Positions 2,999 to 43,956 of a stretch of DNA of 44,122 bases are shown piece by piece. Every line of letters begins with the position of its first letter. Position 1 is the first letter of the stretch. The position numbers were made by a program, and so were the translations under genes. This DNA comes from Magnetococcales bacterium (GTDB taxonomy: Bacteria; Pseudomonadota; Magnetococcia; Magnetococcales; Magnetaquicoccaceae), in assembly GCA_015231915.1 (NCBI GenBank), contig JADGAR010000029.1:1-44122 (forward strand), written 5' to 3'. The notes below the pieces were generated by a model that did not search any database, was not told the origin of the DNA, and worked only from the letters and a program-made list of their open reading frames with translations.

Positions 2999-3076
<78 letters not shown>

Positions 3077-23465: not shown

Positions 23466-24581
23466 ATGGAATTCCTGGCAGGGCAGCCGTTGCTGTGGGT
23501 GGCCATTGGGGCGGTGCTGTTCTTCGACTACACCAACGGCTTTCACGACTCCTCGGACATGACCGCTTCGGTGGTGGGGTGCGGGGCGATGTCGCCCGCC
23601 CGGGCGGTGTTGATGGCATCGTTTTTTACCGCCCTGGGGCCGTTGCTGGGTGGGACCGCCGTGGCCAATGCCGTGGGCAGGGTGTTGGACCTGAGCGGTC
23701 TGGACGCCCGTCTGGCCACCATCGTCATCCTGGCCGGGATTTGCGGGGCCATTTTCTGGAATCTGCTCACCTGGTGGTTCGGCATTCCCTCCTCGTCATC
23801 CCATGCCCTGGTGGGCGGGCTGGTCGGGGCGACGCTCATGGCCGCCGGGCAGGGACATGTCATCTGGGGGTTGGAGGCGTTGTGGAGCGGCAGGGGGCTG
23901 CTGGGTTTCGCCAAAGTGGTGGCTGCCCTGGTGATTTCGCCGCTGGTGGGATTTTGTGTTGCCCTGCTCTCCTACTGGGTGTTGTTTCGCCTGCTGGAGG
24001 GGGTCAAGCAGCGGATCTGCCGCAGGCGGCGGGCGCAGTGGATCCGGGAGGGCCGCGCATTTCGTGCGGGGGACGAGATTCCCAACATCAACAAGTGGCT
24101 CAAGCGATCGCAATACCTGACCATTGCCGTGCTCTCCTTAGCCCACGGGGCCAACGACGCCCAGAAGAGCATGGGGGTGATCGCCCTGCTGTTGCTGCTC
24201 AATGGCCGAACCGGCGCCTTCGAGGTCCCTTATTGGGTGATGCTCTCCTGTTCCCTGGTGATCACCCTGGGGACCCTGTCCGGCGGCTGGCGCATCGTGC
24301 GCACCCTGGCCTTCCGGGTGTCGAAGCTGCGCCCGATCCATGGTCTGGACGCCCAGTTGGGGGCGGGTCTGGTGGTCTTCGGGGCCTCGGTGATCGGCCT
24401 GCCGGTCTCCACCACCCATGTGGTGAGTTCCTCCATCATGGGGGTGGGAGCGGCGGAGAACATCAGGCGCGTCAAGTGGATCATGGCCCTGCGCATCGTG
24501 CTGACCTGGGTGATCACCATCCCCGGCTCCGCGCTGGTGGCCGGGGGGGTGGTGTGGCTGTTGATGCGTTTCGTCAGGTGA
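23466..24581 (+). CDS. PiT-family inorganic phosphate transporter
   Basis: 371 residues, about ten hydrophobic segments. Both inverted-repeat PiT signatures are visible: FFDYTNGFHDSSDMTAS near the N-terminus and LSLAHGANDAQKSMG in the middle, each with the conserved Asn-Asp or His-Asp. The serine-rich GIPSSSSHAL and LPVSTTHVVSSSIMGVG loops complete the family pattern. ATG 23466 has GGAGGGGGG just upstream; a TTG at 23445 is less likely. It probably imports phosphate with protons or sodium. Its end overlaps the convergent gene by 8 bp. Confidence 0.92.
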   Translation: MEFLAGQPLLWVAIGAVLFFDYTNGFHDSSDMTASVVGCGAMSPARAVLMASFFTALGPLLGGTAVANAVGRVLDLSGLDARLATIVILAGICGAIFWNLLTWWFGIPSSSSHALVGGLVGATLMAAGQGHVIWGLEALWSGRGLLGFAKVVAALVISPLVGFCVALLSYWVLFRLLEGVKQRICRRRRAQWIREGRAFRAGDEIPNINKWLKRSQYLTIAVLSLAHGANDAQKSMGVIALLLLLNGRTGAFEVPYWVMLSCSLVITLGTLSGGWRIVRTLAFRVSKLRPIHGLDAQLGAGLVVFGASVIGLPVSTTHVVSSSIMGVGAAENIRRVKWIMALRIVLTWVITIPGSALVAGGVVWLLMRFVR

Positions 24582-27315
24582 AGAGGGTACGCGTCATCAG
24601 GAATTCCGGACAATCCAGGGTGGGATGTTGCCGGGGCGTCGGCCCGAAGGCGGCTTCAATCCGTTTTTCCAATGCCTTGTTGGTGAATTTGTCCCCACCT
24701 CCTTGCAAGATCCGGGTGGCACGGAGGGTGAAGTCGCCCTGACCATTGCTTTCCAGGGCCACTTCATCCGACCGACAGGCGGAAAAGACCACCACCTTGC
24801 CGAGGTTCCCATCGCCCAGACCGGCCTCCGTTCTCCCGCTTCCCGCGCCCTTTTTGCCTTTTCCCAGCAGCTTTCGCTGACGCTTGAGCATGGCTCCGGT
24901 CAGGGAGATGAAACGGGGCGTGGACGCCGCCGGCGCGGGCACGACGAGTCCGCCGGACAGGCTGCGTCCCATGCGGGAGATGGTGCCCGAATGGCAGCAA
25001 TCGAAGAAGCAGGTGAGGCTCACCCCGTCTGGCAGAAGCCCGAACAAGGCGCCGATGTCATCATCCAGCAGCACCCCTTGCCGGTCGAAATCGATGGGAC
25101 AGATCGCCTCGTCCTCATGATCCTTTTCGTCGCCGTTGAGATCCGGAATCTGGGTTCCGTGGCCGGAATAGTGCCAAACCAGGGCATCTCCGGGACGGCT
25201 GGCGCGAATCATCCGTTCGACCACGACCCGGATGCCATCCCGTGTCGCTTGGCCATCGGTCAGGGTGGTCGCCTGAAAGCCCATGCCCTGCAAGGTGGCC
25301 TGCCAGGTCATGGCATCCCGGACGCAGCCGCCGAGGGGGCTGGTGGGGTAGCGGTCAATCCCGATGCAGATGGCAAAGCGTCGTCCGCCTTGGGTCGTCT
25401 TGCCACGGTAGGCTGGGCTGTGCAGCGCTCGCGTGCCCTCGTCGCACTCGGTGGTACGACCTGGGAAGGGCAGCACCGTGCCGGTGAATGGGGTGCCTGA
25501 GGCGCTGAGGATCCGCCAGAGAACGCTCTCCATGGTCTCCGGGTCATTGTCGAAACAGCCATGCTTGCTGACATTGCTCCTGGAGCCGAGGGGGGCATTG
25601 CGGACAGTTGGCGAATAGTGGATCGTGGCCGTGGACGCGGGCGTCGCAACTTCATGTCCCCTGAGATGCTTTTGCAGGCCGAGCAGGGGTTCTTTCTGAT
25701 TGTCCTCCAGGGCATCGGAGATCATGCAGAGCAGGGATCGACCGTAGTTCACCACCCCGAGGCCGCAACTCGAATCGCTTTCCTCGTGCTCCCTGTCCAT
25801 GGTGAAGATGGTGAAACCCGCGGGGGCGACATGCCGCACGTCAAGCTTTGCGGGGTTCCAGATCAGCCGATTAAAGTCATGGATGGAGATGGCAGGCGCC
25901 AGGAACTGGCAGGTATGCAGCACCGGCAGTCCCAGGTTTGCGGCTGCTTGCAACATATGGGCGTGAAAGATCGATCCGGCGCTGTGGCCCACGGCATGGA
26001 TTTCCAGTTGTGCCCGCTGGTCGTGGTTTGTCAGCATGGTGTGCAGCAGTTGCAGGAAATACCATCCGCCGCCCATACGGCAGGGATCATCCGCCTGTCC
26101 GGACGCTTGGAAGGCATGTTCCGCCGCATTCTTCATATCCCGCCACAAGGGCCGCGCGGCCAAACGGCACACCCCTTTCCACACCCCGCGCTTGATTGAG
26201 CCCAAAAAGCCGCGTGATTCGCCATGCGCACTGGTAAAATGATCGATCAGGGTCTCCATGATGCCGGTTTCCCAAACGAAGAACACCGGATAAACCCCAT
26301 TGGCTTTCCACCAGTGCAGCGAGGTCCAGGCCCAACGCAATGCGCTTTTTTCGTTCACCAGTCCGCCATGGGCCCACAGGAGCAGTCTTACAGGCCCTTT
26401 GTTCAGTTGCGCGCCGATGTTCGTGACGATTTCTCGCAACTGGGCCACATCGCTTTGAAAATCGCCATCCCGGGAAAAACATCCTTCGCGCAGGTTGACG
26501 ACATGCAGTCGCAACTCTGCGAGCTGGCTTGCGCCCAGGGGGGCATCCTCTCCGTCCGCGCCGCCCCGACCAAGGGGGGGGATGTCACGAGCATTGGTCA
26601 GCAGGGCATGGCCCCTCGGCGAAGTCCGGGAGGCCTCGTTCCACTCCTCGCCGAGGGTTGCATCGGGACCTGGGGGCGACTCGGCTGTCAAGAGCAGATC
26701 CATCAATTTGCTGCCGGCCAGGGCAGGCGCCGGGGGCACGGGGGCTGGCAGCGTCGGACCCCGCAGGTTGGCCGGTGGTTGTTGCATCACCTTGGCCACG
26801 TCGGACAGGAGCGCTGCGTAACCGATCGTATTGCCGGGACAGCTTTTGTGTGAGGTCATCTGGTTGTGAAACCGCATGGCCTCTGCCGGCAAACCGAATT
26901 TTTTCAGGACCTCGGCAATGACACGACAGGCGGTCGTCTTTTGTGGCCCGGCGAAATCGTCGTTGCCCTGATCAAAATCACCGATCATCTCGATCATGAA
27001 GGGGCCAGCGGTTTCGTTGCCGTTGAAGCCGGTGGCACTGGCCGGAGGCCAGTTCCAGTTCCGGCAGATCCAGATCTCCCCAGCCGGGTCAATGGTCACA
27101 TGCTGGGCAATATCCCGCCAGCCTTTCTCCTCGGTATGATAGCGCCACATGCCCTGGATCACTTCCACCTTGTTCGTGGCGGCGATCCAGATGGCATGAT
27201 TCGGTCGCCAGGTATGATGCAGATGGACCGAGTCGATTCTGCGCCGGAACGGAAAGGATTGCAGCAATGCAATAAACGCATCGATGTCGCACGATTTGAA
27301 GATGGGCGCGTTCAT
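24574..27315 (-). CDS. PGRP/amidase - alpha/beta-hydrolase - caspase fusion
   Basis: 913 residues, three hydrolase-like parts. Residues 1-175 resemble an amidase_2/PGRP domain: VHLHHTW with His33 as the expected zinc ligand, then HNQMTSHKSCPGN with His150 and Cys159 as the other two. Residues about 265-530 hold an alpha/beta-hydrolase with the nucleophile elbow VGHSAG (Ser445) and the early LLLWAHGG oxyanion-type strand. Residues about 645-905 form a caspase-like peptidase (C14 clan): RRFAICIGIDRY, catalytic HYSGHG (His719) and FDCCHSG (Cys774). No signal peptide is seen. The start has GGAGG 7 nt upstream, and the lipoprotein gene ends 18 bp before it. Candidate roles are toxic effector, stress protease or defence protein; the sequence alone does not decide. 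Confidence 0.85.
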   Translation of the reverse strand: MNAPIFKSCDIDAFIALLQSFPFRRRIDSVHLHHTWRPNHAIWIAATNKVEVIQGMWRYHTEEKGWRDIAQHVTIDPAGEIWICRNWNWPPASATGFNGNETAGPFMIEMIGDFDQGNDDFAGPQKTTACRVIAEVLKKFGLPAEAMRFHNQMTSHKSCPGNTIGYAALLSDVAKVMQQPPANLRGPTLPAPVPPAPALAGSKLMDLLLTAESPPGPDATLGEEWNEASRTSPRGHALLTNARDIPPLGRGGADGEDAPLGASQLAELRLHVVNLREGCFSRDGDFQSDVAQLREIVTNIGAQLNKGPVRLLLWAHGGLVNEKSALRWAWTSLHWWKANGVYPVFFVWETGIMETLIDHFTSAHGESRGFLGSIKRGVWKGVCRLAARPLWRDMKNAAEHAFQASGQADDPCRMGGGWYFLQLLHTMLTNHDQRAQLEIHAVGHSAGSIFHAHMLQAAANLGLPVLHTCQFLAPAISIHDFNRLIWNPAKLDVRHVAPAGFTIFTMDREHEESDSSCGLGVVNYGRSLLCMISDALEDNQKEPLLGLQKHLRGHEVATPASTATIHYSPTVRNAPLGSRSNVSKHGCFDNDPETMESVLWRILSASGTPFTGTVLPFPGRTTECDEGTRALHSPAYRGKTTQGGRRFAICIGIDRYPTSPLGGCVRDAMTWQATLQGMGFQATTLTDGQATRDGIRVVVERMIRASRPGDALVWHYSGHGTQIPDLNGDEKDHEDEAICPIDFDRQGVLLDDDIGALFGLLPDGVSLTCFFDCCHSGTISRMGRSLSGGLVVPAPAASTPRFISLTGAMLKRQRKLLGKGKKGAGSGRTEAGLGDGNLGKVVVFSACRSDEVALESNGQGDFTLRATRILQGGGDKFTNKALEKRIEAAFGPTPRQHPTLDCPEFLMTRTLFT

Positions 27316-29140: not shown

Positions 29141-29226
29141 ACCGGACCAGAAGACTGTACTTCCCGCGCATCATGTGGCATGATGCATCGTATTGCGCGC
29201 CCACGATTCCTCAGGAGGCACCGTCC

Positions 29227-29742
29227 ATGACCCAATCGACCCCCATCCTCATGTTCGTTCTCGCAGGGTGGCTCGTCTCGTTGCCGGGCCACCTCCTGGC
29301 AGAAACCCTCTATGCGGCGAAAAGCGGCGTCGAGGTCAATCAGGACCCTTCGCCCACCTCAAAAATCCTCGCCACCCTGGAGCGGGATGCCCCGGTCCAG
29401 GTCCTGGGCAACAAGGACCGCTACGTCCAGGTCAAACTCGCCAATGGCACCAAGGGGTGGGTCTATCAGTTCAAGCTCGCCAAGAACACCGCCAAACCCG
29501 AAGGAGGCGCCATCAACCTGGCGGCCCTGACCGGCGGCGGCAACATCCACGCCAAGGAGGCACGCTCCGGCGGCAGCATCCGCGGCATGCAGCCCGTAGC
29601 CGTCGGCTATGCCAAAAACCGCCACATCGACGAAAACCACATCCGCTCCCTCGAATGGATGGAGTGGTTCCAGGTGTCGGACAAGGAACTCATGACCTTC
29701 AAGAAGGAAGGCCGCATCGGCGAATTCCTGGGGAGCAAATGA
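29227..29742 (+). CDS. Exported SH3b-like protein
   Basis: 171 residues. A signal peptide of about 25 residues ends near LLAETLYA. Next comes a bacterial SH3 domain (about 28-85: VNQDPSPTSKILATLERDAPVQVLG, then YVQVKLANGTKGWVYQF) of the kind that binds peptidoglycan. A charged helical tail ends EGRIGEFLGSK. CAGGAGG lies upstream of ATG 29227. The stop overlaps the M48 peptidase start (ATGA). It probably guides or tunes the periplasmic peptidase encoded next. Confidence 0.8.
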   Translation: MTQSTPILMFVLAGWLVSLPGHLLAETLYAAKSGVEVNQDPSPTSKILATLERDAPVQVLGNKDRYVQVKLANGTKGWVYQFKLAKNTAKPEGGAINLAALTGGGNIHAKEARSGGSIRGMQPVAVGYAKNRHIDENHIRSLEWMEWFQVSDKELMTFKKEGRIGEFLGSK

Positions 29743-30671
29743 CCATGCCATACGCCATCCGTATCGTTCTGGGCGCCTTGATGCTCCTCGTCGCACCGGT
29801 AGGGACCACCCTCGGCGCGGGACTGCTCGACCAGCTGCAACAAATACCGATTCCTTCGGCACCAGGAGGCGGCTCGGTGATCGACGGCGTCGGCGGCATG
29901 CTGGGCGTGGACCAGAAAAAACTCGACCTGGTCAAAAAAGGGGTGCAGACCGCACAGGCCATGCAACCCATCAACGAAGAGGCGGAACGCGCCCTGGGAG
30001 AGACCATCGCCGTGGAGGCCTTCCGTCGCTTCGGCGGCCTCTACCGCAACGAACCCCTGACCCGCTATCTCTCCCTGGTGGGCCGGAGCATCGCCGAGGT
30101 GACGGATCGTCCCAACCTCAATTACCATTTCGCCATTCTCGACAGCCCGGAGGAAAACGCCTTCGCCGCCCCCGGAGGATTCGTCTTCGTCACCCTCGGC
30201 CTGCTGCGCGCCCTCTCCAGCGAGTCGGAACTCGCCGGCGTGCTCGGCCATGAACTGGCCCACATCAACCGCAAGCACATGCTCAATACCCTCCAGCGCG
30301 GCTCCCTCCTCTCCAATGTCACCGAGCTGTCCATGGCCGCCCTCGACAAGGACCCGAAACTGCTCGGCTCCGCAGTGGATCAGCTCTCCGATCTGCTCTT
30401 CACCCGTGGCCTGGACAAGGACCTCGAGTTCGAGGCCGATCAATACGGCCTGGATTACGCCCAGCGCGCCGGGTACACCCCGAACGGGCTGCGGGTCTAC
30501 CTGCAACGCCTCGCCCGCAAGCAAGGCGCCTCCCGCTCGGTTTTCTTCACGACCCATCCCCCGGTGGATGAGCGCCTGCAACGGGTGGAACGCCGCATCG
30601 CCGCTATGCCCAAGGAACCGCACCTGGCGATTCTGCAAGACCGGTTCAAGCGGAACATGAGCGCCATGTGA
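29739..30671 (+). CDS. Periplasmic M48-family metalloprotease
   Basis: 310 residues. The N-terminal signal peptide is (MTMPYAIRIVLGALMLLVAP...), so the enzyme is exported. Zinc motif HELAH (His171, Glu172, His175) and the third ligand Glu232 in EFEADQYGLDYA are intact, and a THPPVDERLQRVE stretch near the end is typical of BepA/LoiP-like M48 enzymes that process or degrade envelope proteins. ATG 29739 overlaps the preceding stop (ATGA). The stop overlaps the following GTG (GTGA). No BepA-type TPR tail is present, so it is the short form. Confidence 0.9.
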   Translation: MTMPYAIRIVLGALMLLVAPVGTTLGAGLLDQLQQIPIPSAPGGGSVIDGVGGMLGVDQKKLDLVKKGVQTAQAMQPINEEAERALGETIAVEAFRRFGGLYRNEPLTRYLSLVGRSIAEVTDRPNLNYHFAILDSPEENAFAAPGGFVFVTLGLLRALSSESELAGVLGHELAHINRKHMLNTLQRGSLLSNVTELSMAALDKDPKLLGSAVDQLSDLLFTRGLDKDLEFEADQYGLDYAQRAGYTPNGLRVYLQRLARKQGASRSVFFTTHPPVDERLQRVERRIAAMPKEPHLAILQDRFKRNMSAM

Positions 30672-33600
30672 GCGGCGGTTTTCCGGTCAAGCGTCTTTTC
30701 GGGATCACAACTCTCGCGGCGATCGCGCTCCTGGCTTGTTGTTTCCTCTTCCTGCCGCAACTGGCCGGTTCGGAACGCTTCCGCGTCGCCCTCGAAGCCA
30801 TGCTGGGGCGCGCCTTGCACGGCGAGGTGCGCCTGGGCAGGCTTGCGCTGGATTTTTCCAGCGGGATTCGCGTCGAAGGATTGCAATGGATCAAGGACGG
30901 CGTGCCGCGCCTGGTCCTGGACCGGCTCCTGCTGGACGTGGCCTGGAGCGAGCTGCCATTGGGCCGGCTGGTCGTTCGCGAGCTGCGCATCAGCGATGGC
31001 CGCCTGACCGCTTCCCAACAGGACCTCGCCCCGCAGGAGGCCGAGGCGCCCGCCAAGGCCCCCGCCAGCGGTTTTTCCCTGCCCGCCATCTTCCCGCTGG
31101 CCCTGGAGTTGCGCTCCGTGCGGCTGGAGGGGATCGATCTGGATTTCACCTATCCCCCCTCCCAGCGCCTCCATTTGCGCAATCTCGCCCTGAGCGCCTC
31201 GGCGCGGGCCGACCGGGAGGGGCTGGAGTTGCAGGGCACCCTGGACATCGCCACCCTCACCTTCAGCGACGCGAAGGGATCGCTCTCCCTGCCCGTGGAT
31301 CTGGTGTTCGACCTGGGCGGGGATTTCGGCTGGCGGGGACTGCGGGCGCGGCACTCCGCGCTGCGGCTGGGGGATCTGACCTCCATCCCGTTGGAGATCC
31401 AGATCAACACCGCCTACCACCCTTACGAGATGTTTCTCACCACCCGCGCCGAACCCATCTCCCTGGCCCCCATTCTGGCCCTGGTGCAACCCTGGTTGCC
31501 GGAGGCGTGGAACCCCTGCACCCTGACCGGTCGGCTCGAACCGTGGCTGACCATCGCGGGCCGCTGGGACGCGGACGGCTGGCATGGCCAGGCCACCGGC
31601 GGCCTGACCGCCGCCGGGTTGAACGCCGACCTGCCCAATCTGGCGATCCAGGTGACCGATGGCCAGGCGCAAGTCACCCTGAAATGGATGGAGTGGTACG
31701 CCAATCTCTTGCGCACGCTCTCTGCAGAGGTGAGCGTCAAGGCCGTGGACGCCGCCTGGGACCAGGAGGGGCTGCGGGATTTCTCCCTGCTGGCGGTCTC
31801 CGATTACCACCCCGACGGTCGGGTGGACGGCCACATGCGCCTGCGCGCAGAACGCACCGCGCCGCGCCTGCCTTTCGAGACCATCGTGCTGGCCAGCAGC
31901 GAGCCGCGCTCCGACTCCTATCATTTGCACCGACTGATGATCAAGGCCGGCGACTGGCTGCATCTGGTCGGAGAAGGGGATCTGGCGCGTCAGCCGGGGC
32001 AGCGGGCCGGGTGGCATCTGGAGGGGCGGTTGCACTCCACCTGGGAGTTGTCCAGGCTGTTGGAGCTGCTGCCCCCCGCGTGGTTGCAAGAAACCGGGGT
32101 GGCTTTCGCGCCCGGAGCGAGCCGATTGCGGCTGGAAGGGCGGGTCGGCATGGATGCGCACGGCATGCCCCGCGACATGGAGTTGGGCGGCGCGGCCACA
32201 CTCGCCCCCTGGCGGGTGGCCCTGGCCGGCGGGGAGTACTCCGGGACCGGCACCCGTTTGGCCTGGCGGGCCAACCAGGCCGTCACGGACGGGCCGGTGC
32301 GCGCCCGGCTGCGGGGCAATGCCGCCTTGACACGCAATGCGACGGCGCTCCCGGAGTTGAGCATCGCCTTGCAGGGGGAGGGGGATCCGGCCAACGGGGT
32401 CTATCGGGTGGAGCGGTTGCGGCTCGGGGTGGCCAGGGAGTTGACCGCCACCCTCGCGGGGCGGTATCAGGCAAAAGACGAGCAATTCGAAGCAAGCGGC
32501 AGCGTGGATCCCGTGGATCTGGTCCGTCTCGGGGAGCGGTTCGATCTGGCCGGACAGCCCTGGTATGCCATGGCTCAGCCCAGGGGGCGCGTCGGTTTGC
32601 GTTTCAACGCGGCGGGGCGGCTGGCGGAGCTGGCGCAACTGGATGGCCGTTCGTGGCCGTTGCAGGCCGATGTGCAGCTCATGCTCGCCGATCTGGCCGG
32701 GCAGTGGGGCGGCTGGAGCGTGGAGGAGGCCAACGGCGTGCTGCAGGCCGCCACCCGCCCGCAAGAGCCGCGCCGGATCCGGTTGAGCGGGGATCTGCGT
32801 GCCAGGCCCCGTCCTTTCTTCATGGAAGGGGGCGGCCCGGTGAAGCTTTTGTTCGACGTGACCGGTCAGGAGCTGGAGCAATGGCGTCTGAACCAGGTGC
32901 GGGCCGTGTTGCCGGGTCTGGTGCTGGATGCCTCGGGAGGGGTTGCCGGCACCGGCAGGCTGTTGCGCGGGGAGGGAGGAATCGCCAATCTGCTGACCCC
33001 CTTGCTGGTGGACGTGACGGGCAAGGCGCGCGCCGATTCGGGGCCGGTGACGGAGTGGTCCCTCTTCAAGGCGGCCAGGGGACCGGTCACGGCACGCCTG
33101 ACGCTGGATCCCAACGGGCTGTCCTGGAAGGGTGAGGGGGTCTTTCTGCAGCGGGCCGCCGGCAAGGTGAGCGGGGTGAAGACCCTCTGGCTGACCGGCC
33201 CGCCTCCCGCAACCAGCAGCAGTCAGCGGCGCGCCTTTGCCCTGGAGCGTCTTGCCACCCCCGCCTCCTGGTCGGCGTCCGACCGGCGCCTGCGCATCGA
33301 CGCCCTGGAGATCGCCGGGGTGAAGGCCGAGGAGATCGGCCTCGATTTGAGCTTTCACGAGGAGACCATCCGGGGAAGCCATCTGGAGATGCGGCTGCTG
33401 GGGGGCAGGATCGGGGGCAATCTTTTGGTGGATGCGGTCAGGCCGGGCCGCATCGACGCGGTGCTGGAAGGGGTCGGGATCGACCTGAATCAACTGCTGC
33501 CGGAAGGAGAGCGCCTCGCCAGGGACAGTTCGGTGGATTGCGTGGCGCGTCTGGCGTTGCGGTTCGAAAAGGAGAGCGGCAAACTGAGCTGGGGACGCAG

Positions 33601-33955
33601 CGAAATGAGCCTGATCTTCACCCGCATCGGTCGGGAGGCCCTGGACCGGCTGCTGCTCGCCCTGGACCCGCGCGAGAGCAATCCGGCCCTGGTCAATGCC
33701 CGTTCCAAGGTGGCTTACGCCAATCCTGCCTCTTTGGATTTGCAATTGGCCAAGGGAACGGTCAAACTGCGTATCGAGTTCGCATCGGGATTGATCTCCT
33801 CCCTGAACGTGGAGCGCATCCCGTTGGGGGTTTTGGGTCGCTTCGAGCGGATCGGTCGGGAGCTGGTCCCCCTGGAAAACCTGATGCGGCTTCTGACCTT
33901 GGCCGGCACCACCCATTTGCAGCTGGAGGCCCATGAAAACACGCCCGCGCCTTGA
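30668..33955 (+). CDS. AsmA/YdbH-like envelope lipid-transfer protein
   Basis: 1095 residues. One N-terminal TM (residues about 9-30, LFGITTLAAIALLACCFLFLPQLAG) anchors a long beta-rich periplasmic body, as in AsmA-like bridges that carry phospholipids to the outer membrane. The first domain (about 35-135) and the last 220 residues (from ASWSASDRRLRIDALEIAG) match the AsmA-type N- and C-terminal ends. The downstream DUF1318 gene fits the YdbH-YnbE-YdbL system, so YdbH is the best match. The start is a GTG overlapping the peptidase stop. The gene overlaps the DUF1318 gene by 23 bp. Confidence 0.8.
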   Translation: MSGGFPVKRLFGITTLAAIALLACCFLFLPQLAGSERFRVALEAMLGRALHGEVRLGRLALDFSSGIRVEGLQWIKDGVPRLVLDRLLLDVAWSELPLGRLVVRELRISDGRLTASQQDLAPQEAEAPAKAPASGFSLPAIFPLALELRSVRLEGIDLDFTYPPSQRLHLRNLALSASARADREGLELQGTLDIATLTFSDAKGSLSLPVDLVFDLGGDFGWRGLRARHSALRLGDLTSIPLEIQINTAYHPYEMFLTTRAEPISLAPILALVQPWLPEAWNPCTLTGRLEPWLTIAGRWDADGWHGQATGGLTAAGLNADLPNLAIQVTDGQAQVTLKWMEWYANLLRTLSAEVSVKAVDAAWDQEGLRDFSLLAVSDYHPDGRVDGHMRLRAERTAPRLPFETIVLASSEPRSDSYHLHRLMIKAGDWLHLVGEGDLARQPGQRAGWHLEGRLHSTWELSRLLELLPPAWLQETGVAFAPGASRLRLEGRVGMDAHGMPRDMELGGAATLAPWRVALAGGEYSGTGTRLAWRANQAVTDGPVRARLRGNAALTRNATALPELSIALQGEGDPANGVYRVERLRLGVARELTATLAGRYQAKDEQFEASGSVDPVDLVRLGERFDLAGQPWYAMAQPRGRVGLRFNAAGRLAELAQLDGRSWPLQADVQLMLADLAGQWGGWSVEEANGVLQAATRPQEPRRIRLSGDLRARPRPFFMEGGGPVKLLFDVTGQELEQWRLNQVRAVLPGLVLDASGGVAGTGRLLRGEGGIANLLTPLLVDVTGKARADSGPVTEWSLFKAARGPVTARLTLDPNGLSWKGEGVFLQRAAGKVSGVKTLWLTGPPPATSSSQRRAFALERLATPASWSASDRRLRIDALEIAGVKAEEIGLDLSFHEETIRGSHLEMRLLGGRIGGNLLVDAVRPGRIDAVLEGVGIDLNQLLPEGERLARDSSVDCVARLALRFEKESGKLSWGRSEMSLIFTRIGREALDRLLLALDPRESNPALVNARSKVAYANPASLDLQLAKGTVKLRIEFASGLISSLNVERIPLGVLGRFERIGRELVPLENLMRLLTLAGTTHLQLEAHENTPAP

Positions 33956-34520
33956 TGTTCCTGTTGCTGTCGCGGCTGCCCTGCTGGTGGCGGGATGCGG
34001 CGGTCCCCTGCTGGAGGTCACCCTGGTGGACGAGCGCACCGCCCTGGAGAATCAGGTGTTGGGCAGCTATGCCGAGCTGGGCAGGGAGGTGATGCTGCTG
34101 GCCTCGGTGCGGGGCCTCGATCCGCAAGGCCACCTGGTGAAAAAAACGCCCCTGGCCCCCAATCACAAGCTCGTGGTGCGCGCCCTGCAACGCACCGCCT
34201 TCAACCGGGACGACCTGGACCGCTTCAAGCGGGCCGGGGTGATCGGCGAGAACAATCAGGGTGGGGTGACCCTCCTCGCCCCGGAGAAGGTCGATGCCGG
34301 TCAACGTCCCTTTGTGGCCAATCTGGTCGAGGAGGAGAACGCCGACCGCAAGGTGATCATGGCCCGCATGATCGATACCGACGAAAAGCTCACCGAGGGG
34401 GACCTGCCCCGCATCCGCGCGGTCTTCGCCAACATGCAGCGGGACAATGCCCCGCCCGGCGTGCCGATCCAGCAGCCGGACGGCTCCTGGAAGCCCAAGG
34501 CGGACCTGGCGGCCAGGTGA
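33933..34520 (+). CDS. DUF1318 lipoprotein, YdbL/YnbE-like
   Basis: 195 residues. Lipobox VAGC puts the lipidated cysteine at position 22. The C-terminal half has the DUF1318 pattern (VIGENNQGG, then EENADRKVIMARMI), as in YdbL. In enterobacteria YnbE (lipoprotein) and YdbL (DUF1318) are separate; here one protein carries both a lipid anchor and DUF1318, which suggests a combined form. CTGGAGG lies directly upstream of ATG 33933. It is the last gene of the SH3-M48-AsmA run. Confidence 0.8.
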   Translation: MKTRPRLDVPVAVAAALLVAGCGGPLLEVTLVDERTALENQVLGSYAELGREVMLLASVRGLDPQGHLVKKTPLAPNHKLVVRALQRTAFNRDDLDRFKRAGVIGENNQGGVTLLAPEKVDAGQRPFVANLVEEENADRKVIMARMIDTDEKLTEGDLPRIRAVFANMQRDNAPPGVPIQQPDGSWKPKADLAAR

Positions 34521-34536: not shown

Positions 34537-36057
34537 CTATGCCGGGGTGGTCTTGAAATAAGCCATGATATTGATCATCGACTGGGCTTGCGCGCTCATC
34601 TCCTCGGCGGTGGCGGCCATCTCCTCGGAGGCGCCGGCATTGGTCTGCACCACCTGATCCACCTGGAAGACCGATTGGGAGATCTGGTCGATTCCCTCCC
34701 GTTGCTGCCTGTTGCAATCCGCGATGCCGCGAATCCGTTCCGCGGTTTCCTGGATGTCGGGCACCAGTTTTTCGATGATGGCGCCGGCCTCTTCGGAAAT
34801 CTGGACACTGGAGGAGGAGAGCTGACCGATCTCCCCGGCGGCGACCTGACTGCGTTCGGCCAGTTTCCTCACCTCGGCGGCCACCACGGCGAACCCCTTG
34901 CCGTGCTCTCCGGCGCGGGCCGCTTCGATGGCGGCATTCAGTGCCAGCAGGTTGGTCTGGCGGGCGATCTCCTCGATGATCGAGATTCTGGAGGCGATTT
35001 CCTGCATGGCTTGGACCGACTCCACCACCGCCTTGCCCCCCTGGGCCGCATCCCGGGCAGCCCGCAGGGCCAGGGTTTGGGTGGTGTCGGCACTGTCGGT
35101 GCCAAGCTTGCAACTGCTGGTCATTTGGGTCATGGCAAAGGTCGCACTCTGCAGGGAGGTTGCCTGCTCGCTCACCCCCTGGGCGAGATTGGTGGCGGAG
35201 ACCGCGATTTCGTTGCTGCCGGTTCCCACCTGATCGGCCACCCCCTGGAGTTCCCGCACCACCTCCCGCAGTCTGGTCACCATCTCCCGGAGCGCCAGGA
35301 AGATGCCGGTGGCCTTGCCGGAGGCATCGAGCCGCATGGTCAGGTCGCCGGAGGCCACCTGTGCCGCCAGTTGCGCGATCTCCTCGGGTTCCCCGCCCAC
35401 CTGCCGCATGATCTGTCGGGCAATCGCCATCCCGAGCGCGACGGCCAGCAGAAAGACCATGACCAGGATCACCATGGCGATGCGGATGGCCTCGGTGCGT
35501 GTCGCGTCGAAGTGGGCGTCCGCCTCTTCGGCTTCTTTTGCCAGCGACTCCTTGATTTCTTTAAGCTGATTCATGAGGCCGTTGCGCACCTCATCCAGTT
35601 CGCCGTCCAGTTGGCGCAATCTTTTCGCCTCCGCGCTTTCCTTCTGGGCATCCATGGCGGCGATTGTGGCAAAATAATCGCCGGCAATGCGCGAAATATA
35701 ATTTTTGTATTGCGTCTTGACGGTCTCCAGGGTGGCGCGCTCTTCCGGGGTATCCACCAGAATGGCGAGGGCCGCGAGGTCTTTTTCCATTTGGGCGGTG
35801 GCCTCGCGCAGGGAGCGTTGCGACGCCTCCAGGTTGCGGTTGATGGCGGCATCGGCGGCGATGCTGTAAACCCCCTCGGCGCGCAGGACGATTTCCAGCA
35901 CTTCGCCGGCGGATTTGAAGCGTCCCGCCCCTTCGTCCTGCAACTGGGCCAGCCTGGACATGACATGCACCTGATAGAGGGCGGCAGCCAGAAAAACGCA
36001 GGCGAGCAGCAGGAAGGATGCGATAATTCTGGTCTTTAATTTGGTATTGCTGATCAT
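34537..36057 (-). CDS. Methyl-accepting chemotaxis protein
   Basis: 506-residue chemoreceptor. TM1 is at about 10-28, then a four-helix-bundle periplasmic sensor (4HB_MCP-like, about 30-190), TM2 at about 191-212, HAMP and a kinase-control module with the tip [20 protein letters not shown]. The tip and its flanks are nearly identical to those of the receptor at 11474, while the sensors differ. No cheW follows. The promoter lies at 36110-36137. It is convergent with the DUF1318 gene (16-bp gap) and divergent from the CHAT gene. Confidence 0.93.
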
Positions 36058-36163: not shown

Positions 36164-36336
36164 GCATGGGAGATATTTTGGCGATTTTGCTTGCATCCGC
36201 GCATGACGTCGTGCGATGTTCGCGGAACCGTTCCACCCGCTTGCCGAGCACACAAAGAGATGCCATCGTGTTGCCGAACGTCGAGAGTGATGCGCCAATC
36301 GAGGAGGCCCTGCCCAGCCCGCGCGGGGCGCGCGCC

Positions 36337-39300
36337 ATGAGCCATGCCCGTCCGCATTCGCTCTGCCGGATCGTGGCGCTTGCGTGCCTGTTTTTCCAGT
36401 TGCCCCCCTGCCCTGCGGACGCGGAGACGGTCATTGCCCATGCCGCCTATGATTTCGCCCCCTCGGTCAGCCGGGATGGCCGCCTGCTCGCGTTCGTCTC
36501 CAACCGCTCCGGCAACCGGGAGATCTGGCTGCGGGACCTGACCGCCGGCCTGGGGGCAGCCCCAAGACAGTTGACCGATCATCCGGGGGCCGACGAGGAG
36601 CCGGCCATCAGTCCGGATGGCACGCGTCTGTTGTACGTCTCCCACGCCACCGACCCGCGCGGCGATCTCTATCTGCTGGACCTGGCCAGCGGTTCCCGCA
36701 CCCGGCTGACCGACGCCACCCGTGGCGAAAGCGCGCCGGTCTGGAGTCCGGATGGTGCGGCGTTTCTTTATACCCGCCTGGCCGCGGGGCAGGAGCCACA
36801 GGCGGTCATCCACCATCACCCGGCCACCGGCAAGGAGTCGGTGGTGATGACCGGGGCCTCCTCCTGCGCCATCGGAGCCAACGACCGGCTGGTCTGCGCT
36901 CGTGACGGGAAGCTGTTTTTTCTCCAATTGGCCGCGCCGGGGTCGCCTGTGCCTCTGGCCACGGTCGGCCAGGACCGTGAGCCGGTGTTGGCCGACATCG
37001 ACGGCCAGGAGTGGCTGTTTTTCACCCGTTTCGCCGATTCCCGGGACGAGGGCCGTTCCACGCTGCACATGGCCCGTTTTGTGCCGGGACAACCCCTGGC
37101 CGAGACGTGGCAACTGACTCCGGAAGGGGAGTCCGCCCAGCACCCCAGTGTGGCCGGCAACCGGATGTATTACACCGACGCCCGCAATGGCGACATCCGG
37201 CGTCTGGATGTGCAGGCCTTTCTGGCGGGGTACCGGGATGCGACCAAGGCGCGCAATGCCGCCGCCGCCCGTTTCGCCGCCGGGGAGAGCGCGGCGGGCC
37301 TGCTGATTCTGGGCAACCTGTGCGCCAATCCCGGCGCCATGCCCGCCGGCGAGCGGCTGCAACTCGACCTCGAATACGCCGGACAACTGCGCGAGGCCGG
37401 CTGGCACGCGCGCGCGAAAGAGGTCCTGGCAAGGCACGCCAAATCGCCGGCAGCGGCGATTCCGGCCATTGCGCTGCCCATCGAAGAGGCGGTGGACCGC
37501 ATCGGGGCCGAGGATCTGCGGGAACGGGTGCGCAAGGCGGTGGAGGAGATCGGCGCCATCGCCGCGCAATGGCCGGGAGACGAACGGGTGGGCGTCATGG
37601 CCCGCATGGAGTCGAGCCGGCTTTTGCTGCTGATCGATGAGCCGCTGAGCGCCCTGGAGCAGTTGGCGCCCCTGGAAAAACTCAAGAACCGGGAATTGCG
37701 CGCCCAGGCCCTGTTCGTCCGGGGCAAGGTCTATCGGACCATGGGCAACACCGCCGGATTGCGGCGGATCTTTCCGGAGGTGATCCGCGCGGTGGGCGAA
37801 GGGAACCGCTGGGGGGTGCTGGCCATTGCGCAAGCGATCGCCGTGGCCGAGGGAACCGCAGAAACCCCCCTGCCGCAACGGATCGCCGCCCTGCGCGAGC
37901 TGATCCGCGAGCATCCCGACCTGAAACGCCTCAAGACCGCCACCCTGCTGCGCATCGCCCGCATCTGGCAGGAGGCGGGCGAGGAGATGAAGACGGTAGC
38001 CACCCTGGCGGAGATCCCGCCGGACGATCCGGAGCGGGGCAAAAGCCTCTGGTGGCAGGCGGAACGGCTCATCCGGCTGGAGCAGTATGCCGAGGCGGCC
38101 AAGGCCTACGAGGCGTTGACCCGGCTTGCCGGCCAGGAGGCGGAAGAGCGGGAGCGGGCCACCCGTGCGATGATCGGCCAACTCGTGGCAGCGGCGGTCA
38201 AGGATCGGGAACTGGGTGATCCCAAGGCGGCGGCCAAGGCGCTGGGAGGGATCGTGGCCGCCCACCCCGCCTCGGTGGAGGCCCATCGCGCCCATGTCGC
38301 CACCCGCGCCATGCTGGGCAAAAATGGCGAGAATCTGACCCATTACGGCAGGCTTTTGGCCGAAAATCCCCGCGATCCGGTGTTGCGCTATGCCCACGCC
38401 CTGGCCCTCACCTACGAGGCCTCCCCGGATTTTCCGACCCTGGCCGCCGAGTTGACCCGGCTGGCCGAGGAGGTGCCGGACAATCCGTTTTTTCATCAGA
38501 CCCTGGGGTGGGTACACGAACGCATCGGGGGGAGCCATCTGGAGCAGGCGGCGCGCGCCTATCAGACCGCCCTGCGCCTGACCGATCCGCGCCAGGGGCC
38601 GCGCGCCGAGGCGGATCTGTTGCGCAATCTGGGCAATGTCTTTCACGCCATGCCCAATCATGCCGAGTCCTACCGCTATTTCAAGCGCTGGACCGAGCGC
38701 AAGCTGCCGCTGGCCGAACCCCTGGAAAACGCCCTGCTGTTGCGCAAGCTGGCGGAAAGCGCCTTCAAGACCGACCGCACCCAGGAGGCGACGTTTCTCT
38801 ATCGCAAGGCCATCGACCTCCTCCCCGCCGAGCAGAAGGTGCTCCGGCTGGAGTTGATGGAGCGGCTGGCCCTGGCCTTCCAGGCCATGGGCGAACACGC
38901 CAAGGCCGCCAACTGGTTCGCCAGGGTCCTGGAGGGCAACCGCGAGCTGGGCAAGAGCGACAATCTCGCCCTGTTGCAACGCAACATCGGCGTCAACCTG
39001 CACCAGGCCGCCCTGTCCGGCGAGGTCCCGGACCAGGCGGCCCTGAAGGAGGCGCTAACCCGTTTCCTGGCCAGCCTGGCGGATCTGGAGCGGCATGGCA
39101 AACAGGCCCCTTCCGGGGGCAAGGGTTTTATCAATCTGGTGTTTTCCCTGGGGGAGAGCAGTTCCGGGGCCGCCTTCGGCTTTGACCGCACCGGAGAGCA
39201 GAAACTGTTGTTCGGTTTTCTCGCCACCACCTACGAGGGGTTGGAGGAGCCTGGCCCGGCCCTGGAGTATCTGCAAAAGAAACTGGCCCTGATCCCTGCG

Positions 39301-42300
39301 CAGGCAGAAGAAGACGTGGCGCAAGCCACGGAAAAGGCGGTGCTCCTGAGCCGCATCGGTCAACTGCAATTCCGGCTGAACCGGCGCGCCGCCGCCTGGG
39401 AGAGTTCCCTCGCCTCGCTGGTGCTGACCACCCGTCTGGGTTTGAAATTCGGCAATCAGGTCAATCTGCACAACCTCTCCCGGATCGCCGTGGAGCAGCT
39501 GCTGGCCGGAGAGACGGTGACCCCGGAGGCGGCGGCGCAGCTGGCCGACCGCCTCACCCCGGAGTGGGAGGGAGCCACCGTGCCGGTCAGCGCCTTTCAC
39601 ACCCTGGCCAATACCGCCTACGTGCTGGTCAATCTGCCGGAACTCCCCATGGACGCCCGCCTGTACGAATTGAAGGGCCGACCGGAGTCCCTCTATCGCC
39701 GCGCCGAGGCGCTGTTGACCGCCGCCAACGGTTTTTCCAGCCGGGAGCTGCTCGCCCACCAGACGCGCATCAAGCTCAACCGTCTGGTGCTGGCCACCGG
39801 CGCGGAAAAATGGCAGGCCGCCGCCGCGCTGCGCCAGGAGGTGGAGCGGCTGGTGGAGTCCGGCTGGTCGGAGAGCGGCTGGATTCTCTCCCTGTTGCAG
39901 GCCGAGACGGCCAGGGAGCCGGCGGAACAGGAAAAACAGTTGCGAACCGCCCTGGAGCGCGCTTTGAGCCTGCCCGCCATTGCGCTGCCCAGGGGGACGG
40001 GTCGTGCGCAGGCGCCGTTTCTCGATCAGCTCGCCAGCCGCCTGGTCGGTTTGCTCGCGGCGCGTGGCCGGCATGCCGAGGCCTTCGCCGTCAGCGAGCA
40101 GCTGGCCATGCGACGCGACATCCTGCTGCTCAACGACCAATTGGGCAAAGCGTTCTTCCTGCGTGCCGCCGGGGAGGCCGGGGAGGAGCTGACCGCCCTG
40201 TTGCAGGACCTGGAGCTTGCCATGGAGTCCGGCGATGCCGCGCGTCTGGAGACCTCCCTGCTCTTGTGGAAAAAGGCCGTGGCGGATGTGAGCGCGACCC
40301 GTCCGGCGGCTGGGGTTTTTTTCACCCGTTTGGACATCGACGCCTTGCGGGAGCGGCATTGTTCGTCCCGGCATCCCTGTCTGTCGCTCGTTGCGGGGGA
40401 TGCGGGTTGGCATCTGTTTTTGACCACCGGCAAGCCCCTGCAACATGTCAATCTTGCCGATCTGGGCGCGTTGTGGAGCCATCCCGAGGTGGTCGCGGCC
40501 CTGGCGCAGGCCGAGGCGGTCACCCTGGTCGCACCGCAGGCGTCGAGGCTGCCTGCGGGCCGGCTGCCCACGGCCCGGGTCCGCACCCTGGCCGAGCTGA
40601 TCCCGGCCCATGTCCGCCAGGGGCTGTTTCATGCCCGTGTGGCGCTCACCGGCGGGGCGGTGGTGGATGGACAAACCCTCCATGCCGTCTCTTTGACCGG
40701 GGAGACCAGGGAGAGGTTGACGGACGCCCATCTGCTGATCGCCGGAGCGCCGTTGCGCGGATTGGCGATTCCGGTCGCCGAGCGGGATCGGGTGGTGGAG
40801 CGGATTGCCCTTGCGGGGTTGCAGGTGAAGGAGGGGCATACCGCCTTTTTGACCACGACCGCCGGGATGGGGGAAGAGGAGCGTTCCCTGCTGGCCGAGG
40901 CGCTGATTTTCGCCGGCTTTGCCCATGTGGTATTGGTCCCCGAGGATCTGCCGTTGTCCCGGATCGGGCAGGTGGTGGGCCGTTATGTGGCCGGTCTGGA
41001 GGAGGCGCCGGCCCTGCTCGCGTTGGAGCGGGCCTGGCGGGAGGGATCGACCGGCAAGGAGGCGGTTCATCCGTTGCGGTGGCATGGCCGGGTGGGCGCG
41101 GATCCCGGCGAGGCGCGCAAGCTGGCGGCGGGCCTGTACGAGGAGGAGCTGTCCGCCGCCGTGGCCGCGCAACAGGCCGACGACACCCGGACGGCGTTGG
41201 CGCGGGTGGAGAATGCTTTGGCCCTGCAAAAAGCCGCCGGGCGCACAGAGCAGTTTCCGTTGCTCATCCGCTTCGCGGTGGAGAGCCTGTTCCGGCAGGA
41301 GGAGTACGACCGGGCGCTGGTGCATCAGCAGCGCCTGCTGGCCCATCTGGGCGAGGGCGGGGAGGCGCTGGAGCGGGCGCAGGCCGAGTTTACCATGGGG
41401 GTGCTCTATTCACGGCTGGAGCGGTTCGAGCCGGCCATCACCCATCTGGATGGGGCGATCCGCTTGTGGAGTGGCGCGGGCAAGGTGGCCAGGCAGGCGG
41501 AAGGGGTGGCCACTTTGGGGGTGGTGCGGGAGAACCGTGGCGCCTATGCCGAGGCTTTGGCCGATTTCACCACCTCGCTGGATCTCTATATGCGGGTGAA
41601 CGACCGGCAGGCGATGGCCGGGCAGTACATGCGCATGGGGCGGATCGATCATTTGCGTCTGAACCGTTATCTCTCCGCCCGTGAGCGGTTCGGCAAGGCG
41701 CTGGCTTTGTACCGGGAGGTCAAGGACCGGGACGGGGAGGCGCGGGCGCTGTTCGACGAGGGTCTGACATGGGACGCCACCGGGGATTTCGCCGAGGCCG
41801 AAAAGCGTTATCAGGCCGGGCGCGCCATCGGGGTGGAGTTGGATGCCCCTTTCCTGGTGGCCACCGGCGCCCTTTATCTGGCCAATTCCGCCTGGCATCA
41901 GGGGGAGTATCAGGCGGCCCTGGATGGCCTGCTGGCTGCCGACGATGCGGCCAAAAAGGCCGGTGACGCGCAGTTGACCATCATGATCGCCAACACGCGC
42001 GGTCTGGTCTATTGGACCCTGAACGAAAACGAGAAGGCGCTTTTGCATTTGCAAAAGGCCATCGATCTGGCGGAAAAGGAGAAGATCCCGTCGGAGCTGG
42101 CCACCTCCCTGAACAACAAGGGTCAGGTGTTGCGACAGTTGGAGCAGCCGGAAGAGGCGTTGACCTTTTTCCGGCGGGCCAAGGAGATCGACACCGGGTT
42201 GCGGACCAGTTGGGGGTTGGGGTACGACCATCGCAACATCGGCATGGCCTTGATGCAGCTGGGGCGTCTGGAGGAGGCCGAGGCGGAGTTCGTGGAGGCC

Positions 42301-43956
42301 GAGGCGTTGAGCGCGCGCATCTCCTATCCGGTCAATCAGGCCAAGGCGCTGTTGGAACTGGGCCGGGTGAACGTGCGGTTGCAGCGTCCCGCCAGGGCCG
42401 TCGATTTTTTTCAGCGCGCCCAGGCGTTGTCCCGGCGGCATCTGCTCAAGGAGGTGGAGTGGCGGGCAACCGCCGGATTGGCGGCCCTGCTGGCCGGGGA
42501 GGGGCGGAAGGAGGAGGCGGTCAGGCGGTACGACGAGGCGATCCGCGTGGTGGAGGGGATGCGGGAGAGTTTGCGCATCGATGCCTTGCGCAACAGTTTT
42601 CAGGTCAACAAGCAGGATCTTTACCGGGAGATGATCCTGTTGCTGGTGGATCTGGGTCGGCAGCGCGAGGCGTTCGATTATCTGGAGCGGTTTCGTTCGC
42701 GCAATTTCATCGATCTGCTGGCCAATCAGAAGGTGGTGTTGGGCCGCAAGGGGGACGAGGCCGCCTTGCGGCGGGTGAACGGTCTGTTCCGGGAGCTGGA
42801 GGGGTTGGCGAAGGAGATGGCGGCCAGGGACAACCCCCCCCCGGAATTGGTGAAAAAATATCGGGAGAAGCAGGCTGCCGCCGAGGAGGCGCAGTTGGAG
42901 TTGCAGCAGCGCAGCCCGGAGACGAGCGGTTTTGTCAGCGTGGATCCCATCACGTTGGAGCGATTCGAGAAGCTGCTGGATCCGGGCGTGGGGGTCGTGG
43001 CCTATCTGCTGACGGAGAAGGAGCTGTTGGTGTGGCTGACGCGCCGGGAGGGGACCGTGTTCCGGCGGGTGGCGGTGAGCGAGGCGGAGGTGACCGCCAC
43101 GGTGCGCGCCTATCGGGACCGGATGCAGAACCTGGAGCCGGTGGAGGCGTTGCTGGCGCGGCTGTACGGCTGGCTGATCGCGCCTGTGGAGAAGGAGATC
43201 GCAGGCTTGCGTTATTTGGGGATCATACCCCACGAGGCGCTGCATTTTCTGGCCTTTGCCGCCTTGCCCGGCCCGGGTGGGGTATTGGTGGAACAGCTGC
43301 CATTGTTTTATTCCCCATCTGCCTCGGCAATGCGTTTTGCCTTCGAAAAGCGGCACAAGGAGAAAAAGACCCGTGTTTTGGCGATCGGCAATCCGGATTT
43401 GGGGGATTTGAATTACGACCTGCCGTTGGCCGAGTTCGAGGCGGACAGCATTCGCTGGTCGTTTCCGCGCGGGGAGGCGATGAAGGGGAAGCAGGCCAGC
43501 AAGGAGTGGCTGGTCAAGCACATTGGCGAGTATGGGATCATCCACATTGCCGCGCACGGGGATTTTCAGAATATCAATCCGTTGTTTTCATCGCTTTGGC
43601 TGGCCTCCGGGGAGGGCGCGGACTCCGGTCGTCTGACGGTCAAGGAGATCTTCGCCTTGGACCTGCAGGCCGACCTGGTGACGTTGAGCGCCTGTCAGAC
43701 CGGTTTGGGTCAACTGCGCGGCAGCGAGTTGATCGGCCTGAACCGTGCCTTTCTGTATGCCGGGACCCACAGCCTGATTTCGTCGCTCTGGCGCGTGGAC
43801 GATCTTTCCACGGCGGTCCTGATGAAGCATTTTTATCGCAATTATGCCAGCATGCCCAAAGCCGACAGTCTGCGTCAGGCCCAGTTGCTGGTAAAACAGA
43901 ATTTCCCTCATCCTGCCAACTGGGCCGGGTTTAATCTGGTTGGGGATTATCGATAA
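36337..43956 (+). CDS. Exported TolB-propeller/TPR/CHAT giant protease
   Basis: 2539 residues. A signal peptide (1-29, core IVALACLFFQL, end PADA) predicts export. Residues about 35-290 hold PD40/TolB-type propeller blades (SVSRDGRLLAFVSNRSGNREIW, AISPDGTRLLYVS, VWSPDGAAFLYT). Residues about 300-1330 are helical, TPR-like, and about 1600-2150 give clearer TPRs. Between them, about 1330-1590, lies a CHAT-like segment without catalytic residues. The C-terminal CHAT domain (about 2200-2539) is intact: IIHIAAHG (His2407), LSACQTGLG (Cys2453), AFLYAGTHSLISSLWRVDD. ATG 36337 is chosen for the signal peptide; the frame opens at 36166 but the extension looks noncoding. CHAT proteases are usually cytoplasmic, so export is odd. 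Confidence 0.85.
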   Translation: MSHARPHSLCRIVALACLFFQLPPCPADAETVIAHAAYDFAPSVSRDGRLLAFVSNRSGNREIWLRDLTAGLGAAPRQLTDHPGADEEPAISPDGTRLLYVSHATDPRGDLYLLDLASGSRTRLTDATRGESAPVWSPDGAAFLYTRLAAGQEPQAVIHHHPATGKESVVMTGASSCAIGANDRLVCARDGKLFFLQLAAPGSPVPLATVGQDREPVLADIDGQEWLFFTRFADSRDEGRSTLHMARFVPGQPLAETWQLTPEGESAQHPSVAGNRMYYTDARNGDIRRLDVQAFLAGYRDATKARNAAAARFAAGESAAGLLILGNLCANPGAMPAGERLQLDLEYAGQLREAGWHARAKEVLARHAKSPAAAIPAIALPIEEAVDRIGAEDLRERVRKAVEEIGAIAAQWPGDERVGVMARMESSRLLLLIDEPLSALEQLAPLEKLKNRELRAQALFVRGKVYRTMGNTAGLRRIFPEVIRAVGEGNRWGVLAIAQAIAVAEGTAETPLPQRIAALRELIREHPDLKRLKTATLLRIARIWQEAGEEMKTVATLAEIPPDDPERGKSLWWQAERLIRLEQYAEAAKAYEALTRLAGQEAEERERATRAMIGQLVAAAVKDRELGDPKAAAKALGGIVAAHPASVEAHRAHVATRAMLGKNGENLTHYGRLLAENPRDPVLRYAHALALTYEASPDFPTLAAELTRLAEEVPDNPFFHQTLGWVHERIGGSHLEQAARAYQTALRLTDPRQGPRAEADLLRNLGNVFHAMPNHAESYRYFKRWTERKLPLAEPLENALLLRKLAESAFKTDRTQEATFLYRKAIDLLPAEQKVLRLELMERLALAFQAMGEHAKAANWFARVLEGNRELGKSDNLALLQRNIGVNLHQAALSGEVPDQAALKEALTRFLASLADLERHGKQAPSGGKGFINLVFSLGESSSGAAFGFDRTGEQKLLFGFLATTYEGLEEPGPALEYLQKKLALIPAQAEEDVAQATEKAVLLSRIGQLQFRLNRRAAAWESSLASLVLTTRLGLKFGNQVNLHNLSRIAVEQLLAGETVTPEAAAQLADRLTPEWEGATVPVSAFHTLANTAYVLVNLPELPMDARLYELKGRPESLYRRAEALLTAANGFSSRELLAHQTRIKLNRLVLATGAEKWQAAAALRQEVERLVESGWSESGWILSLLQAETAREPAEQEKQLRTALERALSLPAIALPRGTGRAQAPFLDQLASRLVGLLAARGRHAEAFAVSEQLAMRRDILLLNDQLGKAFFLRAAGEAGEELTALLQDLELAMESGDAARLETSLLLWKKAVADVSATRPAAGVFFTRLDIDALRERHCSSRHPCLSLVAGDAGWHLFLTTGKPLQHVNLADLGALWSHPEVVAALAQAEAVTLVAPQASRLPAGRLPTARVRTLAELIPAHVRQGLFHARVALTGGAVVDGQTLHAVSLTGETRERLTDAHLLIAGAPLRGLAIPVAERDRVVERIALAGLQVKEGHTAFLTTTAGMGEEERSLLAEALIFAGFAHVVLVPEDLPLSRIGQVVGRYVAGLEEAPALLALERAWREGSTGKEAVHPLRWHGRVGADPGEARKLAAGLYEEELSAAVAAQQADDTRTALARVENALALQKAAGRTEQFPLLIRFAVESLFRQEEYDRALVHQQRLLAHLGEGGEALERAQAEFTMGVLYSRLERFEPAITHLDGAIRLWSGAGKVARQAEGVATLGVVRENRGAYAEALADFTTSLDLYMRVNDRQAMAGQYMRMGRIDHLRLNRYLSARERFGKALALYREVKDRDGEARALFDEGLTWDATGDFAEAEKRYQAGRAIGVELDAPFLVATGALYLANSAWHQGEYQAALDGLLAADDAAKKAGDAQLTIMIANTRGLVYWTLNENEKALLHLQKAIDLAEKEKIPSELATSLNNKGQVLRQLEQPEEALTFFRRAKEIDTGLRTSWGLGYDHRNIGMALMQLGRLEEAEAEFVEAEALSARISYPVNQAKALLELGRVNVRLQRPARAVDFFQRAQALSRRHLLKEVEWRATAGLAALLAGEGRKEEAVRRYDEAIRVVEGMRESLRIDALRNSFQVNKQDLYREMILLLVDLGRQREAFDYLERFRSRNFIDLLANQKVVLGRKGDEAALRRVNGLFRELEGLAKEMAARDNPPPELVKKYREKQAAAEEAQLELQQRSPETSGFVSVDPITLERFEKLLDPGVGVVAYLLTEKELLVWLTRREGTVFRRVAVSEAEVTATVRAYRDRMQNLEPVEALLARLYGWLIAPVEKEIAGLRYLGIIPHEALHFLAFAALPGPGGVLVEQLPLFYSPSASAMRFAFEKRHKEKKTRVLAIGNPDLGDLNYDLPLAEFEADSIRWSFPRGEAMKGKQASKEWLVKHIGEYGIIHIAAHGDFQNINPLFSSLWLASGEGADSGRLTVKEIFALDLQADLVTLSACQTGLGQLRGSELIGLNRAFLYAGTHSLISSLWRVDDLSTAVLMKHFYRNYASMPKADSLRQAQLLVKQNFPHPANWAGFNLVGDYR

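Follow-up and report, generated by a model that had tools for sequence, protein, structure and literature searches.

Architecture and genetic context of a probably exported giant TPR-CHAT protein with a TolB-like propeller in Magnetococcales

Results and discussion

Gene model and domain architecture

The window analysed here, 44,122 nucleotides of contig JADGAR010000029.1 from a Magnetococcales bacterium, encodes a giant protein whose parts, judged from its sequence, follow the order signal peptide, propeller, TPR region, pseudo-CHAT, second TPR region and CHAT. Its genetic linkage across phyla to a partner operon, encoding an SH3-domain protein, an M48 metalloprotease, an AsmA-like protein and a DUF1318 lipoprotein, is well supported. 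We propose, with moderate confidence, that the giant acts as a periplasmic sensor-scaffold with a C-terminal caspase-like protease and is part of a YdbH/YdbL-like intermembrane lipid-homeostasis system. The first-pass annotation of the gene had described an exported CHAT protein with a propeller that departs from its cytoplasmic relatives. The export, the propeller and the architecture held up while the cytoplasmic premise did not, and the pseudo-CHAT and the AsmA/DUF1318 operon, both overlooked at that stage, are more informative features than those first noted.

The open reading frame is unbroken from ATG 36337 to 43956 on the forward strand (2539 aa), and residues of the window's protein are numbered below from this ATG. 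The frame remains open further upstream, up to an ATG at 36166 (2596 aa). In a close relative with 89% identity (G001), a GTG placed behind AGGAG aligns with GTG 36268 of the window, and there is no Met at the position of ATG 36337. These two features favour GTG 36268 as the probable start, giving a gene at 36268–43956 (+) with 2562 codons for amino acids. Thus, the intact frame and the domains assigned to the originally described 2539-residue protein were correct, and its start probably was not.

Pfam recognized PD40 (E 4.5e-20), TPR_12 in eight stretches (E 2e-38) and CHAT at residues 2271–2537 (E 6e-58) in the window giant, and the initially proposed layout of signal peptide, PD40/TolB propeller, TPR and CHAT is supported. 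The first TPR-like helical region, whose helices start after the propeller, would cover about residues 269–1328 (37141–40320, +), and the second, recognized by Pfam, about residues 1607–2188 (41155–42900, +), the extent of both being approximate. Overall, the giant looks like two TPR-CHAT units in tandem, the first of which is catalytically dead.

Export signal and predicted location

The N-terminus carries a signal-peptide-like stretch, RIVALACLFFQLPPCPADA with E as the next residue, encoded at 36268–36423 (+), for which hydropathy and inspection indicate an extended n-region and a likely cleavage between ADA and E. The signal-peptide-like stretch proposed in the first annotation is real. Its n-h-c form is conserved, by hydropathy and inspection, among 49 family members. 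The first annotation also withstood both refuting checks attached to it: the upstream start at GTG 36268 only lengthens the n-region, leaving the hydrophobic core and the cleavage motif unchanged, and the homologues have kept the hydrophobic segment. Indeed, a 12-residue segment with a mean hydropathy of at least 1.6 was present near the propeller start in 49/49 members with an intact N-terminus, a value reached by just 4.9% of equal-sized control windows drawn from the remainder of the same 49 proteins. The best hydropathy averaged 2.49 in the N-termini versus 0.79 in the controls, and 44 of the 49 N-termini were above the 99th percentile of the control windows. In divergent members the form of the N-terminus was preserved and its letters were not. 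Two other modes of export were considered for the window giant and rejected: the Tat pathway, as there is no twin-arginine motif, and a lipobox reading of VALAC, which has the wrong spacing and a hydrophobic part that is too short.

An alternative is that the hydrophobic N-terminus serves as an uncleaved inner-membrane anchor, with the giant facing the periplasm or with its CHAT domain in the cytoplasm. A start at GTG 36268 makes for a long n-region, which counts against a periplasmic sensor-scaffold, and HetF, a CHAT protein of heterocyst-forming cyanobacteria linked to septal envelope growth, has a single predicted transmembrane segment (PMC8406250). However, small-x-small cleavage motifs immediately precede the propeller in most members, the positive charges are located upstream and not downstream of the hydrophobic core, and a distant family member (L117) has a lipobox. 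Moreover, the paired cysteines and DTNxDG loops described below suit an extracytoplasmic propeller, and we regard the anchor as improbable. The export segment, the lipobox, the paired cysteines, the DTNxDG loop and the very low cysteine content of the family (2.1 per 1000 residues) are indirect signs, all of them pointing outside the cytoplasm, and the giant is probably exported to the periplasm.

TolB-like propeller

About residues 30–267 (36424–37137, +) are predicted to form a six-bladed TolB-like beta propeller. The AlphaFold2 model, built from 46 sequences, reached a pLDDT of 94 and consisted of approximately 23 strands, which we interpret as six blades, with helices after them. The top PDB matches in Foldseek were TolB (E 3e-14), and a profile search against TolB gave an E-value of 9e-18, so that the PD40/TolB assignment made at first sight is now backed by the Pfam PD40 match, the TolB profile and the TolB fold. 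The giant shares with TolB of the Tol-Pal system the predicted six-bladed periplasmic propeller, but it scored 62 bits against the TIGR02800 cut-off of 343.15, with about 130 of 418 positions matched. There is also no space for the N-terminal domain of TolB, the signal peptide abutting the propeller, and Pal and TolA are not encoded beside the giant.

Cys177 and Cys187 of the propeller (36865–36897, +) are either both present or both absent in all family rows and, because of this co-occurrence, may form a disulfide. A calcium-loop-like DTNxDG motif was found in the propeller of 42 of the 56 aligned giants (L075 and L089, for example); it is missing from the window giant and from the window's own genus.

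C-terminal CHAT and pseudo-CHAT

The C-terminal CHAT domain (residues 2271–2537; 43147–43947, +), identified by Pfam and the family alignment, scored 196.9 bits against a PF12770 cut-off of 24 and contains the putative catalytic pair His2407 and Cys2453. In the 56-row family alignment, the His was found in 47/47 and the Cys in 47/48 of the rows reaching the respective column, and the surroundings of the two residues are the most conserved stretch of the giant. A nearly invariant pair across phyla, together with the peak of conservation around it, fits selection for catalysis.

A second, interior CHAT copy (residues 1330–1605; 40324–41151, +) has lost the catalytic Cys. Pfam gave no CHAT match within these residues of the window copy, and a shallow comparison of the mid-domain and CHAT profiles (10 versus 11 sequences) also gave no match (probability 0.3). 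The match was obtained with deeper alignments that included sequences from other phyla: hhalign aligned the mid-region family alignment with the C-terminal CHAT over nearly the full domain (probability 99.4, E 1.3e-21). Moreover, the mid domain taken alone matched PF12770 in 39 of 54 members, with a best E-value of 3.6e-19. Cys occupies the catalytic column in 0/54 members, and the interior domain is, as judged by its sequence, catalytically dead. Its structure model was poor (pLDDT 60), the top Foldseek match of this model to DdvA being a hint only, and a profile search with the mid domain against PDB sequences returned nothing relevant.

The loss of catalysis in one of the two CHAT copies would be in line with another explanation, according to which the giant is an exported envelope scaffold or assembly factor organizing the AsmA/DUF1318 machinery, and its C-terminal CHAT serves just for binding or self-maturation and not for signalling through cleavage of other proteins. 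It also agrees with the propeller and TPR parts making up most of the protein and with the conservation of the partner genes. Nevertheless, the C-terminal His and Cys have stayed nearly invariant across phyla within the best conserved part of the giant, and we consider a pure scaffold rather unlikely, preferring a sensor-scaffold with a protease at its C-terminus.

Relation to other CHAT proteins

The premise, taken over from the first annotation, that CHAT proteases act in the cytoplasm was too strong. Among TPR/Sel1 proteins of the same order with a C-terminal CHAT, a signal peptide or lipobox was recognized by eye in 12/12 proteins with intact N-termini and in 7/9 further judgeable ones, hence in 19 of the 21 that could be judged. 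Export, therefore, generally characterizes one CHAT subclass in this order and is not unique to the giant. The exported TPR-CHAT proteins of Magnetococcales make up a sizeable class that seems to have been overlooked. Proteins with CHAT nearer to the N-terminus, some of them behind TIR-like domains, were mostly without a signal peptide or lipobox. Metacaspases of prokaryotes that probably bear an N-terminal signal peptide were already noted in a survey of 2012, in which CHAT was not treated (PMC3501461).

Several characterized proteins share parts of this architecture. Csx29 of the type III-E CRISPR system (Craspase) likewise has TPRs followed by a C-terminal CHAT with His and Cys, and the giant profile matched its structure 7y9x with an E-value of 2.3e-4. 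However, the giant reached 28.4 bits in the Csx29 model NF041237 of NCBIfam, far under the cut-off of 300; Csx29 is a CRISPR partner and has neither signal peptide nor propeller, whereas the giant adds an export signal, the propeller and a dead second CHAT. HetF, the founding CHAT protein, resembles the giant in having TPRs and being membrane-associated, but its CHAT is N-terminal (the CHAT antigen comprised residues 1–555), and it is without a propeller. DdvA (PDB 8rot, 8rw5), one of the closest CHAT proteins of solved structure and titled a transmembrane anti-sigma factor, is an envelope-associated CHAT protein whose CHAT part, going by this title, may face the periplasm. The giant's C-terminal CHAT matched it at profile level with an E-value of 7.8e-4. 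In contrast to the giant, DdvA is an anti-sigma factor with a deposited chain of 991 residues, and it is not known to have a propeller or a second CHAT. Separase, for its part, combines a dead and a live caspase-like domain on a large superhelical scaffold. The giant resembles it in layout only, its two caspase-like domains being approximately 600 residues apart with TPRs between them; Pfam gave no match to Peptidase C50 (PF03568) in the window giant, and one of 54 mid domains touched this family weakly (E 0.008).

Since CHAT and caspase proteins are common in defence systems, and an amidase-caspase fusion is encoded in the same window, the giant might also be seen as a defence or programmed-death effector exported by chance. 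This is very improbable in our view: PADLOC assigned a generic TPR model only, the genes conserved around it concern envelope lipids, as opposed to nucleases, ATPases or cas genes, and the giant family tracks an operon conserved across phyla.

Distribution of the family

One-per-species genomes were scanned with the family-specific TPR core (alignment A4) as a query. This gave 68 loci in Magnetococcales, Nitrospirota, Nitrospinota, Candidatus Nitrotoga, a Chromatiaceae MAG and a few deltaproteobacterial MAGs. Complete giants were about 2560–2800 residues long with the same order of parts throughout, so that homologues of identical layout, for which a search had been suggested, do occur in Nitrospirota, Nitrospinota, Ca. 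Nitrotoga and a few other groups. The carriers include three nitrite-oxidizing groups. The giants of Ca. Nitrotoga (L078, L079) are nested within the Nitrospirota clade (L066–L076) with high support, which suggests lateral passage of the operon between unrelated nitrite oxidizers. In the open-access literature we found no paper on this architecture; subscription papers and preprints were outside the scope of the search.

Partner operon

The partner operon of the window was located with tblastn; long antisense open reading frames overlap it, and the DNA is GC-rich. It consists, on the forward strand, of genes for an exported SH3-domain protein (29173–29742), a BepA/LoiP-like M48 metalloprotease (29739–30671), an AsmA/YhdP-like protein (30668–33955) and a YdbL-type DUF1318 lipoprotein with a lipobox (33933–34520), the M48 and AsmA-like starts each overlapping the preceding stop. 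The DUF1318 protein was above its Pfam cut-off, and the AsmA-like protein matched YhdP with an E-value of 4.8e-8 and 31.8 bits, below the cut-off of 46. In Nitrospirota, Nitrotoga and the Chromatiaceae MAG, all genes are on one strand in the order AsmA-like, DUF1318 lipoprotein, giant, SH3 and M48. In the window, the four partners in the order given above are followed by an opposite-strand gene for a methyl-accepting chemotaxis receptor (34537–36057, −) and then by the giant. The receptor is placed identically in G001 (L057) and is absent from this position in the other carriers with a linked locus; its presence on the other strand between operon and giant counts against a shared system.

The evidence for the linkage goes beyond adjacency. 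Within the order Magnetococcales, the giant core, the AsmA-like protein and the DUF1318 lipoprotein (the latter counted on strong hits) each occurred in 11 of 48 genomes, and these 11 were identical for the three. A twelfth genome (G006), 57% complete, has only the C-terminal half of a giant at a contig end. The partners are encoded on contigs other than that of the giant in G003 and G008, so that physical linkage alone does not account for the co-occurrence. Strong hits of the SH3 gene were confined to giant carriers, although not all carriers had it. Among 49 genomes of the Nitrospira family, 15 had both lipoprotein and giant, 29 had neither, and 5 were discordant; the three giant-only genomes have an incomplete giant frame, a sign that these assemblies may be fragmentary. 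The corresponding Fisher p-values, uncorrected for shared ancestry, were 5e-10 for the order and 6e-8 for the Nitrospira family. Apart from these two groups, 21 of 22 carriers tested via named loci, including Nitrospinota, encode the DUF1318 lipoprotein. In Nitrospinota, the lipoprotein gene is located away from the giant, and in the loci of these carriers its surroundings gave no AsmA-like homologue; this part of the link to lipid transport does not, therefore, extend to all carriers. In the two Nitrospinota loci inspected (L135, L136), a beta-ketoacyl-ACP synthase gene immediately precedes the lipoprotein gene or overlaps with it, again a lipid context.

The DUF1318 model also matches in Escherichia coli, in a protein which we take to be YdbL. 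Lipid homeostasis of the outer membrane in E. coli depends jointly on the AsmA-clan proteins YhdP, TamB and YdbH, and ydbH-ynbE-ydbL form one locus there (PMC8593681). The common point with the window is an AsmA-clan protein adjoining a DUF1318 protein; the E. coli locus, however, has no giant CHAT protein, and the AsmA-like protein of the window matches Pfam YhdP below the cut-off only. No small lipoprotein of the YnbE type was noticed between the overlapping genes of the window.

Possible function

Our lipid-homeostasis reading of the giant is based on its conserved co-occurrence with the AsmA/DUF1318 genes. Its signal peptide, for which the support is strong, would direct the giant to the periplasm, where the TolB-like propeller, together with the first TPR superhelix, might dock a partner in the envelope; the DUF1318 lipoprotein or the AsmA-like bridge would be plausible candidates. 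The dead CHAT between the TPR arrays would act as a structural or regulatory pseudo-enzyme. An envelope signal could then free the C-terminal His/Cys CHAT protease to cleave an envelope partner, and the cleavage would adjust lipid traffic or outer-membrane maintenance. A narrower version, which we put forward as speculative, is a periplasmic caspase-like switch, whereby the propeller and the pseudo-CHAT gate an active CHAT protease and the latter cuts one part of the AsmA/DUF1318 lipid bridge, the whole module spanning nitrite oxidizers and Magnetococcales. The regulation of AsmA-clan lipid bridges is poorly known, and the giant is a concrete candidate regulator. If true, the biology of caspase-clan CHAT proteins would reach beyond CRISPR and development and include envelope homeostasis.

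Other features of the window

A second caspase-clan protein of envelope type is encoded in the window at 24574–27315 (−); its 913 residues comprise an N-terminal Amidase_2 domain (peptidoglycan amidase) and a C-terminal caspase C14 domain. A tRNA-Val gene (2999–3073, +) and an int-alpA RNA match (7354–7422, −) are 4 kb apart, and this pair may mark an integrated mobile element.
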